From positions 1,910,501-1,974,500 of the forward strand of contig NZ_CP095554.1 in the NCBI RefSeq assembly GCF_023078375.1: a stretch of 64,000 bases of DNA, in the 5' to 3' direction. Positions 33,269 through 41,195 of this stretch are shown one piece after another. The notes below the pieces were generated by a model. The model saw only the letters and a list, made by a program, of their open reading frames with translations. It was not told the origin of the DNA and did no database searches. Made by a program: the position numbers and the translations under genes. The DNA comes from Roseomonas gilardii subsp. gilardii (lineage in GTDB: Bacteria; Pseudomonadota; Alphaproteobacteria; Acetobacterales; Acetobacteraceae). Positions within the stretch are counted from its first letter, which is position 1, and the number at the start of each line of letters is the position of its first letter.

Positions 33269-34543
33269 TCATCGCACCAGCCGCCGGGCCAGCTTCCGCG
33301 CGAAGCCGCCGCGCGGCGGGTCGAGCAGCCGGGCCAGGGCGAAGGGGCCGTGCCGCACCCGGGCGCGCCAGTCGCTGAACTCCGCGAAGCCGGCGAAGCC
33401 GTGGTAGCGGCCATGGCCTGAGCCCCCCACGCCTCCGAAGGGCAGGTTGGGGAAGCCCACATGATCCAGCGCCCGGCCGCAGGCGATGGCGCCGGCGCGG
33501 CTTTCCGCCGCGATCCGCCGTTCCTCCTCCCGGCTGGCGCCGAAGAGCGAGAGGGCCAGCGGCGCCGGGCGGGCGCGCAGCCAACCGAGCGCCGCCGCCA
33601 GATCCGCGCATTCCACCAGGCCGAGCACCGGGCCGAAGCGTTCCCCCTGCATCGCCGCCGAGGCGCAGCGCCTCCCCGGGCCTCCGGCCAGAACCTCGCT
33701 GCCCGCCGCGAGGCGCGCCTGCCGTTCCGCCTGCCAGGGCACGATCCGGCTTTCCGGGGCGATGCCGGTGGCGCGGGCGGCCCGGGCGAAGGCGGCGCGG
33801 GAATGGCCCACCAGCAGCACCGTGTCTGGGGCCACGCAGGTCTGCCCGGCATTCAGCGCCTTGGCGGCCAGAATGGCCTGGGCGGCCCGGTCCAGCCTCG
33901 CCCCCGGCAGGACCAGGGCGGCGCATTGCCCGCCGAGTTCCAGGGTCAGCGGCGTGAGGTTCGGCGCCGCGGCCCCGGCCACCCTGCGCCCGGTTTCCGT
34001 ACCGCCGGTGAAGACCAGATGGTTCCAGGGCTGCGCCGCGAAATCCGCCGCCACCGCGGCATCGCCCTGCACCACCCGGGCGATGCCGGGGCCCCAGGCG
34101 CGGGCGACGATCTCCTCCAGCAGCGCGGCGCAGCGGGGCGTGTGCTCGCTGGGCTTGATCGCCACGCGGTTGCCCGCCGCCACGGCCTCCAGCGCCGGCC
34201 AGAGGGCGAGCTGGACCGGGTAGTTCCAGGGCGCCATCACCCCGACCACCCCCTTGGGCACCGGCTCGGTCCAGGCCAGGCAGGGCTGGAAGGGCAGGGG
34301 CGCCAGCACCGGCCGCGGCCGTGCCCACCAGCGCAGCCAGCGCCGCGCCCGCCGGGCCGCCTGCAGCGTCACCAGCACGTCGCCCAGCAAAGTGTCCTCC
34401 GCCGCGCGCCCGCCGAAATCGGCATCCGCCGCCGCCACGATCGCCTCCGACTGCCGCACCAGCTCCGCCGCCAGCGCCGCCAGCAGCCGGCGCCGCTCCG
34501 CGAGTGCCGGCGCCGGCCCGGCGGCCCGCAGCGCCGCCAGCAC
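33269..34543 (-). CDS. aldehyde dehydrogenase (ALDH3/coniferyl-aldehyde-like; AldH candidate)
   Basis: NAD(P)-dependent aldehyde dehydrogenase: VGVMAPWNYPVQLAL, IKPSEHTP, FTGGTETGRRV, the glutamate in LTLELGGQCA, the catalytic cysteine in NAGQTCVAPDT, and FPNLPFGGVGGSGHGRYHG. The N-terminus is short: homology begins at LAALRAAGPAP, right after the palindromic element, so GTG 34543 is the likely core start. The frame stays open through the element, where a GTG preceded by GGGAGA would add about 58 residues. Beside crt-type genes it could oxidise a carotenoid aldehyde to the acid, as AldH does for staphyloxanthin. Confidence 0.75.
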   Translation of the reverse strand: MLAALRAAGPAPALAERRRLLAALAAELVRQSEAIVAAADADFGGRAAEDTLLGDVLVTLQAARRARRWLRWWARPRPVLAPLPFQPCLAWTEPVPKGVVGVMAPWNYPVQLALWPALEAVAAGNRVAIKPSEHTPRCAALLEEIVARAWGPGIARVVQGDAAVAADFAAQPWNHLVFTGGTETGRRVAGAAAPNLTPLTLELGGQCAALVLPGARLDRAAQAILAAKALNAGQTCVAPDTVLLVGHSRAAFARAARATGIAPESRIVPWQAERQARLAAGSEVLAGGPGRRCASAAMQGERFGPVLGLVECADLAAALGWLRARPAPLALSLFGASREEERRIAAESRAGAIACGRALDHVGFPNLPFGGVGGSGHGRYHGFAGFAEFSDWRARVRHGPFALARLLDPPRGGFARKLARRLVR

Positions 34544-34556
34544 CGCGGCGGGGGAG

Positions 34557-34816
34557 GTTTCGGGTGATCGGGCCGGGGAACCGGGAGGCTCTGCCTCCCG
34601 GACCCTCCGCTCAGGGGGATAGTATCCCCCCGAGACCCCGCCAGGAGCGCTCCGCGAGGAGGGGTGGGCGTCCGCCGTTGCGCCTATGGTGACCACTGTC
34701 CCAATCTCCCTCCTCGCGGAGCGCTCACAGGGTTCCCAGGGACTAACGTCCCTGGGCGGGTGGGGTCCGGGGAGGGCAGGGCCCTTCCCGGAGCGCCCGG
34801 CCCGATCACTCGAAAG
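34557..34816. repeat. 260-bp inverted-repeat element with 105-bp arms
   Basis: Left arm (34557-34662) and right arm (34709-34816) are imperfect inverted copies. The inner 18 bp GAGCGCTCCGCGAGGAGG are perfect; the outer ends TTTCGGGTGATCGGGCCGGG and TTTCGAGTGATCGGGCCGGG differ at one base. Each arm holds two smaller hairpins, such as CCGGGAG-GCTCTG-CCTCCCGG and GGGGGAT-AGT-ATCCCCC. The 46-bp loop is unrelated. It fills the gap between the aldehyde dehydrogenase and glycosyltransferase genes and touches the latter's stop codon. It resembles the GC-rich dispersed repeats common in Rhodospirillales. Confidence 0.75.
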
Positions 34817-35933
34817 CCCCGCCACCGGCGGAGTAGGCGCGGCCTTTCCAGGCGGCGCGGTGGCCGAGGGCGGAGCGGACCAGGGCGGTCCACTGGATCG
34901 CCAGGGCCACCAGCACGGTGGCGGGGTGGAGGGGGATGGTCCAGGAGGGCTCGCGGGACAGCCAGGTGATCAGGCCGCGCAGGGCGTAGCCCAGCAGCAG
35001 GGCCAGCCCGGCCAAGGGGGCGGGCAGGAGCAGCCAGGGCAGGACATGGCCGCCGAACAGCACCACCGTCCAGACCGGCAGGCCGAGCGGCGTCGCCATG
35101 CCTTCGCGGGCATTCTTGAGGAAGCCGTTCCAGCTTTCGCGGAAGCCCCGGTACATGCGGCAGGTGGCGAGAGACGCACCCGCCACCACTTCCGTCCGGT
35201 GGCCGGCGGCGCGCAGGCGGCGGGCGAGGGCGAGGCCGTCATGCAGCACGCCGCGCAGCGCGGCATGGCCGCCGCTGGCGCGATAGGCGCCGGCCTCCAC
35301 CAGGATGAGCTGCCCGCAGGCGGCGGCGAGCGCCGGGTGGCGGGTGAAGGCACGCCCGGCGCCGGGCAGGTAGCCCAGCATCAGCAGGTTGATCGCCGGA
35401 ACGGTCAGCGCTTCGCCCAGCGTGCCGATCTCCTGCCGGGGCACGCCGCTCGCCAGGGCCAGCCGGTGCCGGCGCAGATGGGCGGCCAGGGCGGCGGCGG
35501 CCTGGGGAGCGAGGCGCACATCGGCGTCGATGAAGAGCAGGTGCCCGCCGCGCGCGGCCTCGGCGAGGCGGGCGCAGGCATGGACCTTGCCGGTCCAGCC
35601 CGGCGGCAGGGGCGGGGCGCGCAGCAGGCGCAGGCGCGGGTCGCGCGTTGCCAGCGTTTCCACGATGGCGGCGGTGCCGTCGCGGGAACCGTCGTCCATC
35701 ACCAGCACCTCCACTGCCACGCCGGTGGAGGCCAGGGCGGCCTCGACGCAGGCGGCGATATGGGCGGCCTCGTCGCGGGCGGGGATCAGGATGGAGACCA
35801 GGTCGCCCGCCGGTTCCCTGCCCCGGTCCGGCGCCTCCGGGCGCGGCAGCAGGACGGCGTTGAGCAGGGCCATGCCCACCGGGAAAAGCACCAGCGCCAG
35901 GGCCGCGCCCTGCAGGAACAGCGACAGGCTCAT
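34806..35933 (-). CDS. membrane GT2 glycosyltransferase, CrtQ-like
   Basis: Family-2 glycosyltransferase of 375 residues with an N-terminal membrane helix, a GT-A domain (VSILIPARDEAAHIAACVEA, VLVMDDGSRDGT, LLFIDADVRLAP), and C-terminal hydrophobic helices around 285-350. GWTGKVHACARLAEAARG and the RESWNGFLKNAREGMATPLG segment are typical of the CrtQ/hopene-associated group that glycosylates lipidic acceptors. In this operon it is placed to esterify a carotenoid carboxylate with a sugar (inference). It overlaps the acyltransferase gene by 4 bp. Confidence 0.8.
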   Translation of the reverse strand: MSLSLFLQGAALALVLFPVGMALLNAVLLPRPEAPDRGREPAGDLVSILIPARDEAAHIAACVEAALASTGVAVEVLVMDDGSRDGTAAIVETLATRDPRLRLLRAPPLPPGWTGKVHACARLAEAARGGHLLFIDADVRLAPQAAAALAAHLRRHRLALASGVPRQEIGTLGEALTVPAINLLMLGYLPGAGRAFTRHPALAAACGQLILVEAGAYRASGGHAALRGVLHDGLALARRLRAAGHRTEVVAGASLATCRMYRGFRESWNGFLKNAREGMATPLGLPVWTVVLFGGHVLPWLLLPAPLAGLALLLGYALRGLITWLSREPSWTIPLHPATVLVALAIQWTALVRSALGHRAAWKGRAYSAGGGAFE

Positions 35934-36712
35934 CGGGCGTGCCGCGCGTCGAAATGGCGCCCGCCGGCCAGGGCGCGCAGGCGGCGCCAGAGGTCGTAGG
36001 CGCCGCCCATGCCTTCGCGCCCCTGCAACAGGGTGGTGAAGCGGTCGGCGTCGCGCGCGACGGCATCCCCGGCCAGCCGGTCCATGGTGGCGGTCAGCGC
36101 CGCGCGCAGCCGCTCCGCGCGTTCGTCGCGGGTCATCGCCGCCAGCTCGGCGCCGGGGATGGGGGGGCCGAAACCGGCGAGCATCTCGGGCTTACGCTCC
36201 GTCCAGAAAGGGTATTCCAGCGCCAGCGGCAGGAAGCGCGCGGCGGGGGCGAGTTCCGGCAGGCGCAGCAGGCCGGGCACGATGGTGACAGGCCGTTCCC
36301 GCACATCCTGGAAGCGGCCGGGCGCGTTGATCCACAGGGCATGGCCCGGCACGGACAGCACCCTCCGCGCCGTGCGCAGGAAGGCCGCCGCGCCGCGCGG
36401 CGTGCCGCTTTCCACGCCGAAGACGCCGAGCCGCCGCATGAAGCGGTAGCGGGAGAGGGCCTCCGCCTCCATCGGGATGAAGATGCGCTGGCCGGGGAAG
36501 AGGGCGGTGGAGAGCAGCATGAAGGCCACCCCGTCCCACCAGGAGGGGTGGTTGGCGAAGACCACCAGCACCGTGCCGGGCGGGCCGGGATCGGGCTGCC
36601 CCCAGCGGGCGAGGCGCAGCGCCCGCATGTGGCGGCGGCCGAAGCGGGTGAAGGCCCGGCGGAAGAAGCCGTGCCAGCGCGCGTCGTAGAGCGCGAGCGG
36701 GTCCTCCGCCAT
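35930..36712 (-). CDS. PlsC-family acyltransferase (CrtO-role candidate)
   Basis: Lysophospholipid-acyltransferase-like protein, 260 residues. The catalytic HX4D is NHPSWWD, followed by FIPMEAEALSRYRFMRRLGV with a conserved FxxR-like region, and an APGRFQD segment in place of the usual EGTRS. The C-terminal third is helical. In the carotenoid operon it could add a fatty acyl group to the sugar, the step done by CrtO in staphyloxanthin, although CrtO belongs to a different acyltransferase family. It lies 5 bp after the upstream desaturase and overlaps the glycosyltransferase gene. Confidence 0.8.
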   Translation of the reverse strand: MAEDPLALYDARWHGFFRRAFTRFGRRHMRALRLARWGQPDPGPPGTVLVVFANHPSWWDGVAFMLLSTALFPGQRIFIPMEAEALSRYRFMRRLGVFGVESGTPRGAAAFLRTARRVLSVPGHALWINAPGRFQDVRERPVTIVPGLLRLPELAPAARFLPLALEYPFWTERKPEMLAGFGPPIPGAELAAMTRDERAERLRAALTATMDRLAGDAVARDADRFTTLLQGREGMGGAYDLWRRLRALAGGRHFDARHAR

Positions 36713-36717
36713 GGCGG

Positions 36718-38313
36718 CTACTCGGCCGCCTGGGGCATGTCGGCCTCCCGCAATCCCGCCCGTTCCGCCGCCTCGCCCATGCCGCGTCCGCCGAGGTCGC
36801 GGTCCAGCGCATCCGCCGCGATCCAGCCGGACATCATCACCATGGGCATGCCGGGTCCCGGATGCGCCGCGCCGCCGGCGAGGTAGAGGCCCTTCACGGC
36901 GCGCGAACGGTTGCCCGGCTTGAAGGCGCCGAGGAAGGTGCCGTGCGAGGCGAGGCCGTAGATGGCGCCGTTCAGCACCTTGTATCGGTCGTGGATGTCC
37001 TGCGGCGTCAGGGCGCGCTCCACCACGATGCGCTCCTCGATATCCTCCATCCCGGCGCTGCGCTTCAGCTTGCCGAGGATGGTTTGCCGGTAGGCGGGCA
37101 GCATCTTCGACCAGTCGTGATGCGGGCGCAGATAAGGCGTGTGGACGAGGACGTAGAGCGCCTCGCCGCCTTCCGGCGCCACGGAAGGGTCGCTGGCGGA
37201 GGGCGCGGCGAGATAGGCGGTCGGGTCCGGCGCCGGCTCGCCCTTGCGGTAGATGCTGTCGAACTCTTCCTCCGCGTCGCGGGAGAAGACGAAGTCGTGG
37301 TGGGCGAGGTGTTCGTAGCGCTTCCGCAGCCCGAGATAGAGCACCACGCCGGAGCAGGCGGGCTCGTAGCCCTTGCGCGCGTATTTCCGGCCGGTCTCGC
37401 CGCCGACGAGTTCCCGGTAGGTACGGATGGCATCCATGTTGGAGATGACGGCATCGCAGGCGATGCGCTTGCCGCCCGCGACGACGCCCTTCACACTTTT
37501 TCCCCCTGGACCGTCCTGGATGTCGAAGCCGGTGACCTCCACGCCCGGGCGCAGGTCGGCGCCGAGGCCGGCCGCCAGCTTCGCCAGCCCTTCCGCCACG
37601 GCGCGCGTGCCGCCGACGGGATACCAGACGCCTTCGCTCGCCTGCATGTCGCCGATCGAGCAGAGCACCGCCGGGGCCTTGTAGGGGTTGGAGCCGACAT
37701 ACTGGCAGTAGTGGTCCAGCATCTGCGCCAGGCGCTCGTCCGGCACGTGGTGGCGGATGACCTTCGCCACGTTCTGTCCCATGCGCAGGCTCAGCACGTC
37801 CTTCATCGTGCCGGGCTGCATGTTGCTCTTCCAGTCGATCGTGTCGAAGAGATCCTCGACCGGCTTCCAGAAGAAGAACTTCTCCGACACGCCATGCAGG
37901 TGCCGGGCCAGCTTCTGGAACTTCTCGTAGCCTGGGCCGAGATTCCGGCCCGGCGCGAAATCCTCCATGGCACGGGCCATGGCGGGCACGTCCTCCCGCA
38001 GGTCGATGCGCGTGCCATCCTCGAAGAAGCAGCGCCATTGCGGGTCGAGGCGGATCAGCGGCAGTTCCGCCTGCTGGTCACGCCCGGCCTCGGCGAAGAT
38101 CCGCCGCAGCACGCGCGGCACGGTCAGGATGGTCGGCCCCATGTCGAAGCGGAAGCGGCCGGTGCCGTCCGGCGCCTCCAGTTCCAGCACCGCCGCCTTG
38201 CCGCCGAGCCAGGGGTTCTTGTCGAAGAGCGTCACCTGATGCCCGCGCGCCTGCGCCACCGCCGCCGCGGCGAGGCCGCCCAGGCCGGAGCCGATCACCA
38301 CCACCCGTGCCAT
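36718..38313 (-). CDS. CrtI/CrtN-family carotenoid desaturase or oxidase (second copy)
   Basis: FAD-dependent oxidoreductase of 531 residues. Dinucleotide fold VVIGSGLGGLAAAAVAQARG, the substrate-side FDMGPTILTVP, WYPVGGTRAVAEGL in the middle, and the C-terminal FAD motif GLYLAGGAAHPGPGMPMVMM. It differs clearly from the upstream family member and has the shape expected of a desaturase/oxidase pair such as CrtN plus CrtP. Which one desaturates and which oxidises the end group cannot be told by eye. 13 bp separate it from the upstream gene. Confidence 0.82.
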   Translation of the reverse strand: MARVVVIGSGLGGLAAAAVAQARGHQVTLFDKNPWLGGKAAVLELEAPDGTGRFRFDMGPTILTVPRVLRRIFAEAGRDQQAELPLIRLDPQWRCFFEDGTRIDLREDVPAMARAMEDFAPGRNLGPGYEKFQKLARHLHGVSEKFFFWKPVEDLFDTIDWKSNMQPGTMKDVLSLRMGQNVAKVIRHHVPDERLAQMLDHYCQYVGSNPYKAPAVLCSIGDMQASEGVWYPVGGTRAVAEGLAKLAAGLGADLRPGVEVTGFDIQDGPGGKSVKGVVAGGKRIACDAVISNMDAIRTYRELVGGETGRKYARKGYEPACSGVVLYLGLRKRYEHLAHHDFVFSRDAEEEFDSIYRKGEPAPDPTAYLAAPSASDPSVAPEGGEALYVLVHTPYLRPHHDWSKMLPAYRQTILGKLKRSAGMEDIEERIVVERALTPQDIHDRYKVLNGAIYGLASHGTFLGAFKPGNRSRAVKGLYLAGGAAHPGPGMPMVMMSGWIAADALDRDLGGRGMGEAAERAGLREADMPQAAE

Positions 38314-38326
38314 CGTCCCTCCCTCC

Positions 38327-39919
38327 TCAGGCTTCCGCCGGCGTGGCGGCCATCGCGCCGTGCAGCCGCGTGTCCACGCCGTGCAGGCCCAGGTCGCGCA
38401 GGCAGAGATCGGCGCTGATGCGCGCCCCTTCGTAGATCACCGGCAGGCCGGAGCCCGGATGCGTGCCGCCGCCGACGAGGTATACACCCTGCACGTCATG
38501 GAAGCGGTTGCCGGGTCGGAAGGCCAGCATCTGCCGCAGGTCGTGCGCGAGGTTGAAGGTCGCGCCGAAGCCCACCGAGAACTCGTCCCGCCAGTCCATG
38601 GGCGTCACCATGCGTTCGTAGCGGATGCGGGGCCGCAGGTCGCCGATGCCGAGCTTCCGCACGCGGTCCAGCGCCAGTTCCCGGTAGTGGCCGGCCGCCT
38701 GGTTCCAGTCCAGGCCACGGGCATCGCCCTCCCGCAGGTTGGGCACGGGGACGAGGAGGTAGAGCGCGCTGTGGCCGGGCGGGGCCATGCCGTCCTCCGT
38801 GGCGCCGGCATGTTGCAGATAGACCGAAGGAGTCTGCGGCAGCGTGCCCTCGCCGACCTCGCGCAGGTTCCGCTCGTAATCCTCGGCCAGCAGGATGCTG
38901 TGGTGCGCGAGCTGCGGGAAGGTCCCCTCCACACCGAGATAGAGCATGAAGGTGGAGCAGGAATAGCGCGCCGTCGCGATCTTGCGGTCCGGCCAGCGGC
39001 GGCGGAGATGGTCGGGGATCAGGCGCGGCGCGGCATGGGCGAAATCCGCGTTCATCACCACCGCGTCTGCGTCGAAGCGGCGCCCACCGCTCTCCACGCC
39101 GCGCGCGCGGCGGCCCTCGAAGCGGATGTGGTCCACCGGGCTGTCGAGGCGGATCTCCGCGCCCAGGCGCTCCGCCACGCGCGCCATCGCCAGCGCCACC
39201 GCGCCGCAGCCGCCGCGCGGGTGGAAGACGCCGTGCTCGTATTCCAGGAAGCTCAGGATGGTGAAGAGGCTCGGGCAGCGATAGGGGCTCATCCCGAGAT
39301 ACTTGGTCTGGAAGGAGAAGGCGAGGCGCGTGCGCGGGTCTCGGAAAAAGCGCCGCATGTCGCCATCCACGGATTTCGCCGGGCGCAGATGCGGCAGGGC
39401 GCGCAACAGCTCCGGCGCCATCATGTCGCTGGCGCGGGTGAAGGCCCGTTCCAGCACCGGGCGGAAGCTCTTCAGCTTGGCGCGGTTGTCGGCCAGGAAG
39501 CGGCGCAGGTTGCCCGCGTCGCGCGGGTCGAGCTTCGCGATCTCCGCCTCCATCCGCGGCAGGTCGGAGGTCGCGTCCAGCGTGACGCCGCCATCGCCCT
39601 GTTCGAACAGCAGCCGGTATTGCGGATCGAGGCGCAGGAGCTCCACCTCGTCGCGCAGTTCGGCGCCGCAGTCGCGGAAGATCTCCTCCAGGATGCGCGG
39701 ATAGAGGAAGAAGGTCGGCCCCAGGTCGAAGCGGTAGCCGCCCGGCGTCTCCAGGCGCCGGTTGCGCCCGCCGATCACGCCGTCCTTCTCCAGCACGGTG
39801 ACGCGGACCCCCCGCGCGGCCAGGAGCATCGCGGCGGCGAGGCCGCCCGGCCCGGCGCCGATGACCACGGCCTGTGGACGGTCGGCCCGGATCGAGGGAG
39901 TGTAGAGGGGAGCGTTCAT
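38327..39919 (-). CDS. CrtI/CrtN-family carotenoid desaturase (first copy)
   Basis: FAD-dependent desaturase, 530 residues, first gene of the operon. N-terminal AVVIGAGPGGLAAAMLLAAR and GGRNRRLETPGGYRFDLGPT, central FHPRGGCGAVALAMARVAER, C-terminal GVYLVGGGTHPGSGLPVIYE. The last motif (HPGSGLPVIYE) is what I associate with proteobacterial C30/squalene-acting members, though a C40 phytoene substrate cannot be excluded. The ATG at 39919 follows a gap with a 12-bp palindrome. No crtM/crtB-type synthase is in the window, so the precursor must come from elsewhere. Confidence 0.85.
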   Translation of the reverse strand: MNAPLYTPSIRADRPQAVVIGAGPGGLAAAMLLAARGVRVTVLEKDGVIGGRNRRLETPGGYRFDLGPTFFLYPRILEEIFRDCGAELRDEVELLRLDPQYRLLFEQGDGGVTLDATSDLPRMEAEIAKLDPRDAGNLRRFLADNRAKLKSFRPVLERAFTRASDMMAPELLRALPHLRPAKSVDGDMRRFFRDPRTRLAFSFQTKYLGMSPYRCPSLFTILSFLEYEHGVFHPRGGCGAVALAMARVAERLGAEIRLDSPVDHIRFEGRRARGVESGGRRFDADAVVMNADFAHAAPRLIPDHLRRRWPDRKIATARYSCSTFMLYLGVEGTFPQLAHHSILLAEDYERNLREVGEGTLPQTPSVYLQHAGATEDGMAPPGHSALYLLVPVPNLREGDARGLDWNQAAGHYRELALDRVRKLGIGDLRPRIRYERMVTPMDWRDEFSVGFGATFNLAHDLRQMLAFRPGNRFHDVQGVYLVGGGTHPGSGLPVIYEGARISADLCLRDLGLHGVDTRLHGAMAATPAEA

Positions 39920-40052: not shown

Positions 40053-41195
40053 TCAGCCGGTGGGGAGGAGGTGCGGCGGCAGCTCGGCCTGCCCGGCCAC
40101 CCAGGCGGCGAGGGCGGGGAAGTGTTCCGGCCCGGCGGCCGCGGCGGCCAGGGCGTCGCCCAGCACCGGGCCGAACTTGAAGCCATGGCCGGAGGTACCG
40201 CAGAGGGCGAGGCAATGCTCCCCCGGGCGGGCCAGGGTGATGCGTTCCTCCGGCGAGACCTCATAGTAGCAGGCCCGGGCGCCCAGCACCCGGTAGCCCG
40301 CGGCATCGCGCAGGCGCGGGCGGGCGAGGGCGAGGATTTCCTCCGCCTCGGCCGCGCTGGCCTCGCGCGGGTCCTCCGGATCGCCGCGCATCGAGAAGCG
40401 GTGGTCGCCGATCTTCAGCGGCGTGCCGGCCACCGGCGGCACGGCATAGAAGCCGCCGCTGGGCGAGAGGTCCAGTAGCATCGGCGCGGCCTCCCAGGCG
40501 GCACGGTGTGCGGCGGGCGGCTCCAGGAAGACCACGATCTGGCGCGAGGGCGTGGCGCGCGGAGCGAGTTCCGGCAGCAGGGCGGCGGTCCAGGGGCCGG
40601 CCGCCAGGACCAGGAGGTCGGCGCCCGCCACCGTGCCGTTCGCGAGCCGTACCTGCCCCCGGGCGGGGTCCACCGCCTCCACCCGCGCCCGGCGCAGCGT
40701 GACGCCGGAGGCCCCCAGGTACCGCGCCAGCCCGGCCACGATGCGCTCCGCCAGCAGCACCCCGCCGCTGGGCAGGAAGGCCGCCTCGGCGAGCCCGGCC
40801 GGGTCGAGCATGGGGAAGCGGGCGGTGAGGCCGGCGGGCGGGATTTCCTCCAGCCGGTGCCCCGCCGGGGCCAGGGCGGCGCGGCTGGCGGCCAGCCAGC
40901 TGTCCTGCGCATCCGCCAGCATCAGCGTGCCAGTGGGGATGTAGGGCGCCTCCCCGATGGCGGCGAAGAGGCGGTCCCAGGCCCGGTGGGCGCGGTCCAC
41001 CATGCGCATGTAGACGGCCTCCGCCCCATAGGCGTGGCGGATCAGCCGGTGATGGTCCACCGAGGAGCCGCGCGGGTTGGGGCAGCCATCCTGCTCCAGC
41101 AGTTCCACCGCCCAGCCCGCCCGGTGCAGTGTCCAGGCGGAGCAGAGCCCCATGATGCCGCCGCCGACCACCAGCGCCTTTCCGATCCCTGCCAT
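40053..41195 (-). CDS. FAD-dependent amine oxidase, sarcosine oxidase (MSOX/SolA)-like
   Basis: Monomeric sarcosine oxidase-like flavoenzyme (DAO family), 380 residues. FAD fold ALVVGGGIMGLCSAWTLHRA, the HHRLIRHAYG segment, GTPLKIGDHRFS, the cysteine in ACYYEVSPEERI where this family binds FAD covalently, and the C-terminal LCGTSGHGFKFGPVLGDALA. It would oxidise a secondary N-methyl amino acid to the imine with peroxide release. The substrate is not readable. It precedes the crt-like operon on the same strand, but the 133-bp gap suggests independent units. Confidence 0.85.
   Translation of the reverse strand: MAGIGKALVVGGGIMGLCSAWTLHRAGWAVELLEQDGCPNPRGSSVDHHRLIRHAYGAEAVYMRMVDRAHRAWDRLFAAIGEAPYIPTGTLMLADAQDSWLAASRAALAPAGHRLEEIPPAGLTARFPMLDPAGLAEAAFLPSGGVLLAERIVAGLARYLGASGVTLRRARVEAVDPARGQVRLANGTVAGADLLVLAAGPWTAALLPELAPRATPSRQIVVFLEPPAAHRAAWEAAPMLLDLSPSGGFYAVPPVAGTPLKIGDHRFSMRGDPEDPREASAAEAEEILALARPRLRDAAGYRVLGARACYYEVSPEERITLARPGEHCLALCGTSGHGFKFGPVLGDALAAAAAGPEHFPALAAWVAGQAELPPHLLPTG

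Follow-up and report, generated by a model that had tools for sequence, protein, structure and literature searches.

Carotenoid clusters resembling the one described here have been studied by mutants in two alphaproteobacteria. In M. extorquens AM1, the available text of PMC10448405 gives the product as 4-[2-O-11Z-octadecenoyl-glucopyranosyl]-4,4'-diapolycopenedioic acid; a strain without the glycosyltransferase META1p3663 retains the dioic acid, and one without the adjoining lysophospholipid acyltransferase META1p3664 retains the glucosyl dioic acid. That text reports no CrtO homologue found and the aldehyde dehydrogenase (AldH) not identified, pigment having been kept when two AldH candidates were deleted. 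In Azospirillum brasilense Sp7, according to the accessible part of PMC13274349, hpnCDE form one locus and crtNPOQ sit with aldH in a second, deletion of either hpnCDE or crtNPOQ abolishes the carotenoid, and the crtNPOQ deletion accumulates squalene. In the staphyloxanthin pathway the acid comes from an AldH, as PMC10448405 cites, and an AldH is likewise cited for this step in Methylomonas sp. 16a. Here we describe a five-gene run with similarity to these systems in a 64,000-nucleotide stretch of the Roseomonas gilardii subsp. gilardii genome (NZ_CP095554.1, positions 1,910,501 to 1,974,500; "the window"). The first 20 kb of the second contig of this genome are most similar, among the eight records listed out of 52, to plasmids of Roseomonas mucosa (7 records) and a Roseomonas sp. 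(1), with about 65% coverage at about 90% identity, which points to the same genus. No account of this cluster in Roseomonas was found among the open-licence papers listed, and PMC8776678, on Acetobacteraceae metabolites, does not treat it in its available text, where both mentions of "carotenoid" concern other matters.

We read the locus as a squalene-route C30 carotenoid cluster of the crtNPOQ type, with a probability of about 0.9, and as one of a known kind, because its counterparts are those studied by mutants in M. extorquens AM1 (PMC10448405) and A. brasilense Sp7 (PMC13274349). Its gene content, order and phylogeny were observed directly. The reading frames and starts of the five genes, all on the minus strand, were checked in the window, and they are listed here in order of transcription, followed by a repeat:

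38327-39919, minus strand: crtN-like desaturase (desA), 530 aa, ATG start; crtI_fam 508.8 bits
36718-38313, minus strand: crtP-like terminal oxidase (desB), 531 aa; crtI_fam 392.7 bits
35930-36712, minus strand: PlsC/LPLAT-type acyltransferase, 260 aa, HPSWWD; PF01553 17.1 bits, below cut-off
34806-35933, minus strand: GT2 glycosyltransferase (CrtQ-like), 375 aa, ATGA overlap with the acyltransferase gene; Glycos_transf_2 69.9 bits
33269-34543, minus strand: aldehyde dehydrogenase, 424 aa from a likely GTG start; Aldedh 189.7 bits
34546-34827, no strand: dispersed palindromic repeat filling the gap between the glycosyltransferase gene and aldH, arms 34546-34577 and 34796-34827

The exact gaps between the first four genes are 13, 5 and -4 bp, and aldH stands outside this tight run, as 262 bp separate it from the glycosyltransferase gene. 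The initial annotation had described just this arrangement, with two divergent CrtI/CrtN-family oxidoreductases, the acyltransferase, the GT2, these gaps and an AldH on the same strand, and it was confirmed to the base. Its proposal that five chemical steps are grouped here was right, as far as sequence can tell.

Both desaturases exceed the crtI_fam cut-off of 238.1 bits, and among 21 CrtI-family matches in the whole genome (4.62 Mb, two contigs) only these two pass it. A tree was built of 37 proteins, including 11 crtN-like and 11 crtP-like proteins from clusters (the window among them) and six C40 CrtI. The window crtN-like protein grouped with the other 10 desA proteins from clusters (support 100/100), and the crtP-like protein with the corresponding 10 desB proteins (98/100); the cluster enzymes of Azospirillum, Microvirga, Gluconobacter and Limimaricola share both groups, the A. 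brasilense desA protein being 60% identical to the window crtN-like protein. The six CrtI proteins formed a group of their own (100/100), with both window desaturases outside it. Long branches may join HpnE and CrtD in this tree, and the groups relied on are independent of that join. As comparison we used the crt cluster of S. xylosus, in which only CrtO is annotated and the names CrtN and CrtP were assigned by gene order in this analysis. Support of 92/89, under the level starred in the tree, unites the crtP-like group with the CrtP-position protein of S. xylosus and one protein from Cytobacillus, so that the crtP label for desB appears fairly good. The crtN label for desA rests on the cluster counterparts and not on closeness to the staphylococcal CrtN-position protein; that protein and one from Niallia lie outside the pair formed by the crtN-like group and CrtI.

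The window GT2 passes the Glycos_transf_2 cut-off and is 28% identical over 352 columns (E 1e-24) to the GT2 from the S. xylosus cluster. The acyltransferase falls short of the PF01553 cut-off of 23 bits, which the proteins at the same position exceed in Azospirillum (33.0 bits) and Microvirga (23.4 bits), and it carries HPSWWD, which we take to be the HX4D motif of such acyltransferases. By position and family it is the predicted counterpart of META1p3664 and the crtNPOQ O gene.

The gene run was then compared across relatives. An acyltransferase survey (matches to E 1e-8, with the candidates scored per genome limited in number) gave a match for 7 of the 385 genomes sampled across the class and for 63 of the 200 sampled from the family, the window genome being counted in each; the Methylobacterium-type acyltransferase is thus common in this family. 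Forty stretches were analysed: 34 came from the 62 further family genomes that had a match, five from genomes of the class beyond the family, and one from a genome (G013) reached through its AldH. As 39 were chosen for the acyltransferase and one for AldH, clusters without the acyltransferase were not looked for. The order crtN, crtP, acyltransferase, glycosyltransferase was kept in 38/40 stretches, and the acyltransferase lay between crtP and the glycosyltransferase in 39/40. One exception to the order (L096) has the acyltransferase and glycosyltransferase only, and the other (L111) is cut by a contig end and has no crtN; in L101, 2.9 kb separate crtN and crtP. Since 38 of the 40 stretches keep the order, the grouping of the four genes is more than chance. 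Upstream of crtN in the window, on the same strand, lies a DAO-family FAD-dependent oxidoreductase gene (40053-41195); such a gene was also seen upstream in 11 of the 40 stretches, more distant than in the window in nine of these.

A PF00494 search of the window genome found three SQS_PSY-family genes. Two, HpnD and HpnC, lie side by side at C1:2710606-2712331 with HpnE adjoining, and all three proteins exceed their NCBIfam cut-offs (HpnE 397.6, HpnD 317.8, HpnC 281.3 bits). This locus, apart from the crt cluster, also holds squalene-hopene cyclase (749.3 bits) and HpnB (510.2 bits). The third gene is split over two reading frames (L006 7456-8369; G000:C1 about 2865455-2866368), from either a sequencing error or a broken gene; in two congeners (G003 and G004) probably the same gene is one open frame of 305 aa. 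The PF00494 and NCBIfam model searches recognised no CrtM or CrtB in the genome, while HpnC, HpnD and HpnE were over their cut-offs, and squalene is therefore the likely precursor of the window pathway.

These results bear on two other routes. In one, the crtN-like enzyme would desaturate phytoene and the cluster would tailor a C40 carotenoid, in keeping with the position of the crtN-like group as sister to the six C40 CrtI (95/85), to which the window protein is about 34-38% identical. However, no phytoene synthase was recognised among the SQS_PSY-family genes of the genome, two of the three passing the cut-offs for HpnC and HpnD and the initial portion of the third giving 55.9 bits for HpnD (cut-off 278.6) and matching no CrtB model at 1e-5; moreover, the A. 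brasilense counterparts use squalene, in the available text of PMC13274349. We consider a C40 pathway very improbable. The other route, in which a CrtM-like enzyme would supply dehydrosqualene to a true staphyloxanthin-type pathway, would follow the same chemical logic, and the placing of the crtP-like group with the S. xylosus CrtP-position protein and the glycosyltransferase identity of 28% would both fit it. It is more improbable still, as the genome has no separate CrtM candidate, the window acyltransferase gave no local alignment with the CrtO-annotated protein of S. xylosus, and squalene is what accumulates in the A. brasilense crtNPOQ mutant (PMC13274349, as far as its text is available).

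Under the squalene-route reading, squalene would be made by HpnC, HpnD and HpnE from the separate locus that also encodes squalene-hopene cyclase, and the crtN-like enzyme would desaturate it, probably in several steps. The crtP-like enzyme would then oxidise terminal methyl groups to aldehydes and AldH would oxidise the aldehydes to the acid; the GT2 would glycosylate a carboxyl group and the PlsC-type enzyme would acylate the sugar. The pathway would probably end in an acyl-glucosyl ester of 4,4'-diapolycopenedioic acid or in something closely related to it, the likely pink membrane pigment. The initial annotation had anticipated much of this: a PlsC-like enzyme non-homologous to CrtO agrees with the lack of detectable similarity to the S. 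xylosus protein, the supposed lack of CrtM with none being recognised, and squalene made elsewhere, one of its two suggested substrates, with the separate hpnC, hpnD and hpnE locus, and an acylated glycosyl carotenoate is the likely product as far as sequence can tell. The genome search that it had proposed for crtM, crtB and hpnCDE was run, finding hpnCDE and recognising neither crtM nor crtB. The conditions under which it had held that its reading would fail included both desaturases grouping with C40 enzymes and a crtB elsewhere; both desaturases fall in groups of their own outside CrtI and no crtB was recognised, although the crtN-like group is sister to CrtI. Because the crtN-like protein lies closer to C40 CrtI than it does to the staphylococcal yardstick, the grouping of the desaturases has to be read together with the orthologues and the missing crtB.

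Several points weigh against the squalene-route reading. Besides this sister relationship to CrtI rather than to the staphylococcal CrtN-position protein, the chemistry assigned to the window enzymes is carried over from what published mutants showed for the counterparts in two other genera, and the sugar, the acyl chain and whether one or two ends are modified cannot be read from the sequence. Likeness to the AM1 genes is by the description in PMC10448405 and not by sequence: a 24-base primer pattern from that paper had no match in the contigs of the sampled genomes, nor did its primers with up to 2 mismatches in the fetched loci from L045 on. The Azospirillum sequences compared are from a strain other than Sp7. 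Finally, the two AldH deletions in M. extorquens had no effect, so that a role for AldH here is supported by linkage and analogy.

The AldH frame is open over 33269-34825, and the GTG at 34543 was taken as the start because the proteins of three congeners align from residue 9 to 12 of the resulting 424-aa form. The protein is above the Aldedh cut-off and keeps PWNYP, LELGG and GQTC, which presumably surround the catalytic Asn, Glu and Cys; these exact words do not occur in the Azospirillum and Gluconobacter AldH proteins (exact words only, variants not looked for). Proteins 57-90% identical to the window AldH are encoded downstream of the glycosyltransferase gene in relatives. An AldH was found in 26/40 stretches, including 14 of the 17 that carry HpnC and HpnD, and in the four annotated named clusters of Azospirillum, Microvirga, Gluconobacter and Limimaricola.

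Most linked AldH proteins belong to two distant groups of an AldH tree, a Roseomonas/Microvirga type and an Azospirillum/Gluconobacter type; the Limimaricola AldH sits beside unlinked proteins with weak support (93/42). The tree held 30 linked and 25 unlinked rows, unlinked meaning no crt match within about 1.5 kb per side and the unlinked rows being the best matches of the searched genomes, not a random set; one linked contig-end fragment (L105) was dropped for length. On this tree the linked and unlinked labels need at least 3 changes, 2 of them forced by well supported branches. Leaving out the two stretches cut by contig ends, the genomes of 12 of the 14 AldH-less stretches were searched for AldH elsewhere. 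Eight of the 12 have a 45-54% match to the Microvirga AldH away from the cluster, G007 and G018 have matches of 41-43%, and G037 has a 46% match to the Azospirillum AldH. G306, nearest to Microvirga in the desaturase tree, has the cluster and gave no match when searched with the two linked AldH lineages (to 1e-35 and 1e-45, respectively), which parallels the unidentified AldH of M. extorquens, a genome known here from the paper only.

The linked AldH could then be a bystander, with another enzyme, perhaps CrtP itself, making the carboxyl group. The 14 stretches in which no AldH was seen (contig ends cut short two of these), the case of G306, the 262 bp and repeat between the window AldH and glycosyltransferase genes, and the two M. 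extorquens deletions that kept pigment (PMC10448405, available text) all lean that way. The frequency of AldH in the stretches and in all four named clusters argues for a part in the pathway, as do the distant AldH lineages that accompany the cluster and the AldH-made acid cited for staphyloxanthin and Methylomonas sp. 16a in the available sources. We therefore regard a bystander AldH as unlikely, though less so than the C40 and staphyloxanthin-type routes, and the linked AldH genes are candidates for the step left open in the M. extorquens paper (PMC10448405).

In 17/40 stretches hpnC and hpnD follow the glycosyltransferase gene, and in 16 of these hpnE does too (the contig of the other, L085, ends there), an arrangement that favours the squalene route. 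Two cluster HpnE proteins scored in NCBIfam gave HpnE as their best family, at 242.2 and 263.2 bits and so below its cut-off (283.05). Leaving L095 out, the remaining 22 stretches had none of hpnC, hpnD and hpnE to 1e-20. A PF00494 search of 19 cluster-bearing genomes placed the pair inside the cluster in 15; it was the sole strong pair in 8 of these, and the other 7 (G421, G586, G489, G514, G551, G425 and G440) had one more strong SQS_PSY match elsewhere, at 228 to 251 bits. The relatives hint at gain or loss of the cluster's own squalene genes. Microvirga ossetica has a fused HpnC-HpnD protein and HpnE after the glycosyltransferase; its cluster (L124 5069-15291) was seen to lie on a 977-kb plasmid, with an ispH gene also present and a SAM-dependent methyltransferase gene between the two desaturases. 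In Limimaricola variabilis, two squalene/phytoene synthase genes and a gene for an FAD-dependent oxidoreductase stand divergent from crtN, and the AldH gene follows the glycosyltransferase gene on the opposite strand. In Gluconobacter thailandicus (L125 6410-12964) the crt cluster, AldH and a DUF2141 protein are encoded on a 173-kb plasmid; a DUF2141 protein follows the glycosyltransferase in Azospirillum too. As the G. thailandicus plasmid is predicted to be conjugative, the pathway may move between strains.

The repeat in the gap upstream of the window aldH has at least 13 further copies of at least 200 bp in the genome, at 76-86% identity, with 40 of 143 candidates scored. The flanks of these copies (L139-L151) are unrelated and diverge outside the element, which looks like a dispersed, MITE-like element. 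The congeners G003 and G004 have the same repeat in the same place and, like the window, no Hpn genes between the glycosyltransferase gene and aldH. In G413 this interval holds an HpnE gene, whose product is 62% identical over 399 aa to the HpnE of L084, and no HpnC or HpnD. The window lineage may have lost hpnCDE from the cluster rather than never having had them. A tentative joint reading, to which we give slightly less than an even chance, is that the ancestral Roseomonas-type locus was a self-contained eight-gene squalene-to-acylglycosyl-carotenoid unit (crtN-crtP-acyltransferase-glycosyltransferase-hpnC-hpnD-hpnE-aldH). The window lineage would have lost hpnCDE, leaving the palindromic repeat, and would now use one squalene set for hopanoids and pigment; distant AldH lineages would have supplied the aldehyde step on at least two occasions, and a third, as yet unknown enzyme would serve in clusters of the kind seen in G306 and perhaps in M. 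extorquens.

Set against known systems, the locus shares CrtI superfamily desaturases with C40 CrtB-CrtI pathways and differs in that its genome has no recognised phytoene synthase. With staphyloxanthin crtOPQMN it shares oxidation, glycosylation and acylation of a C30 chain and the CrtP-like and CrtQ-like enzymes, but in place of CrtM and CrtO the window genome has HpnCDE and an acyltransferase without detectable similarity. The label "staphyloxanthin-like" given at first holds for the logic and not for the first steps, which match those of a squalene-route C30 pathway. The implied novelty was not upheld, as the locus matches a pathway studied by mutants in two alphaproteobacterial genera (PMC10448405 and PMC13274349, in their available text). 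The cluster is already described in kind and largely ordinary for the field; it likely accounts at the gene level for the pink colour of Roseomonas and leaves understanding of the pathway unchanged, and what is new is modest, namely evolutionary detail on the hpn genes, the repeat and the aldH lineages. With M. extorquens AM1 (META1p3663-3665, META1p3670 and hpnCDE), as described in the available text of PMC10448405, it shares the glycosyltransferase, lysophospholipid-type acyltransferase and crtP genes in a row, squalene from HpnCDE at a separate locus and the lack of a CrtO homologue; the AM1 crtN is several genes off by locus numbers and no AldH was found there, whereas in the window crtN is adjacent and AldH follows. 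The record of another A. brasilense strain holds a divergent AldH gene upstream of crtN, of another lineage than that of the window, with two desaturases, a lysophospholipid acyltransferase and a glycosyltransferase. With A. brasilense Sp7, as far as PMC13274349 is available, the window shares the same four genes, an AldH at the locus and hpnCDE apart.

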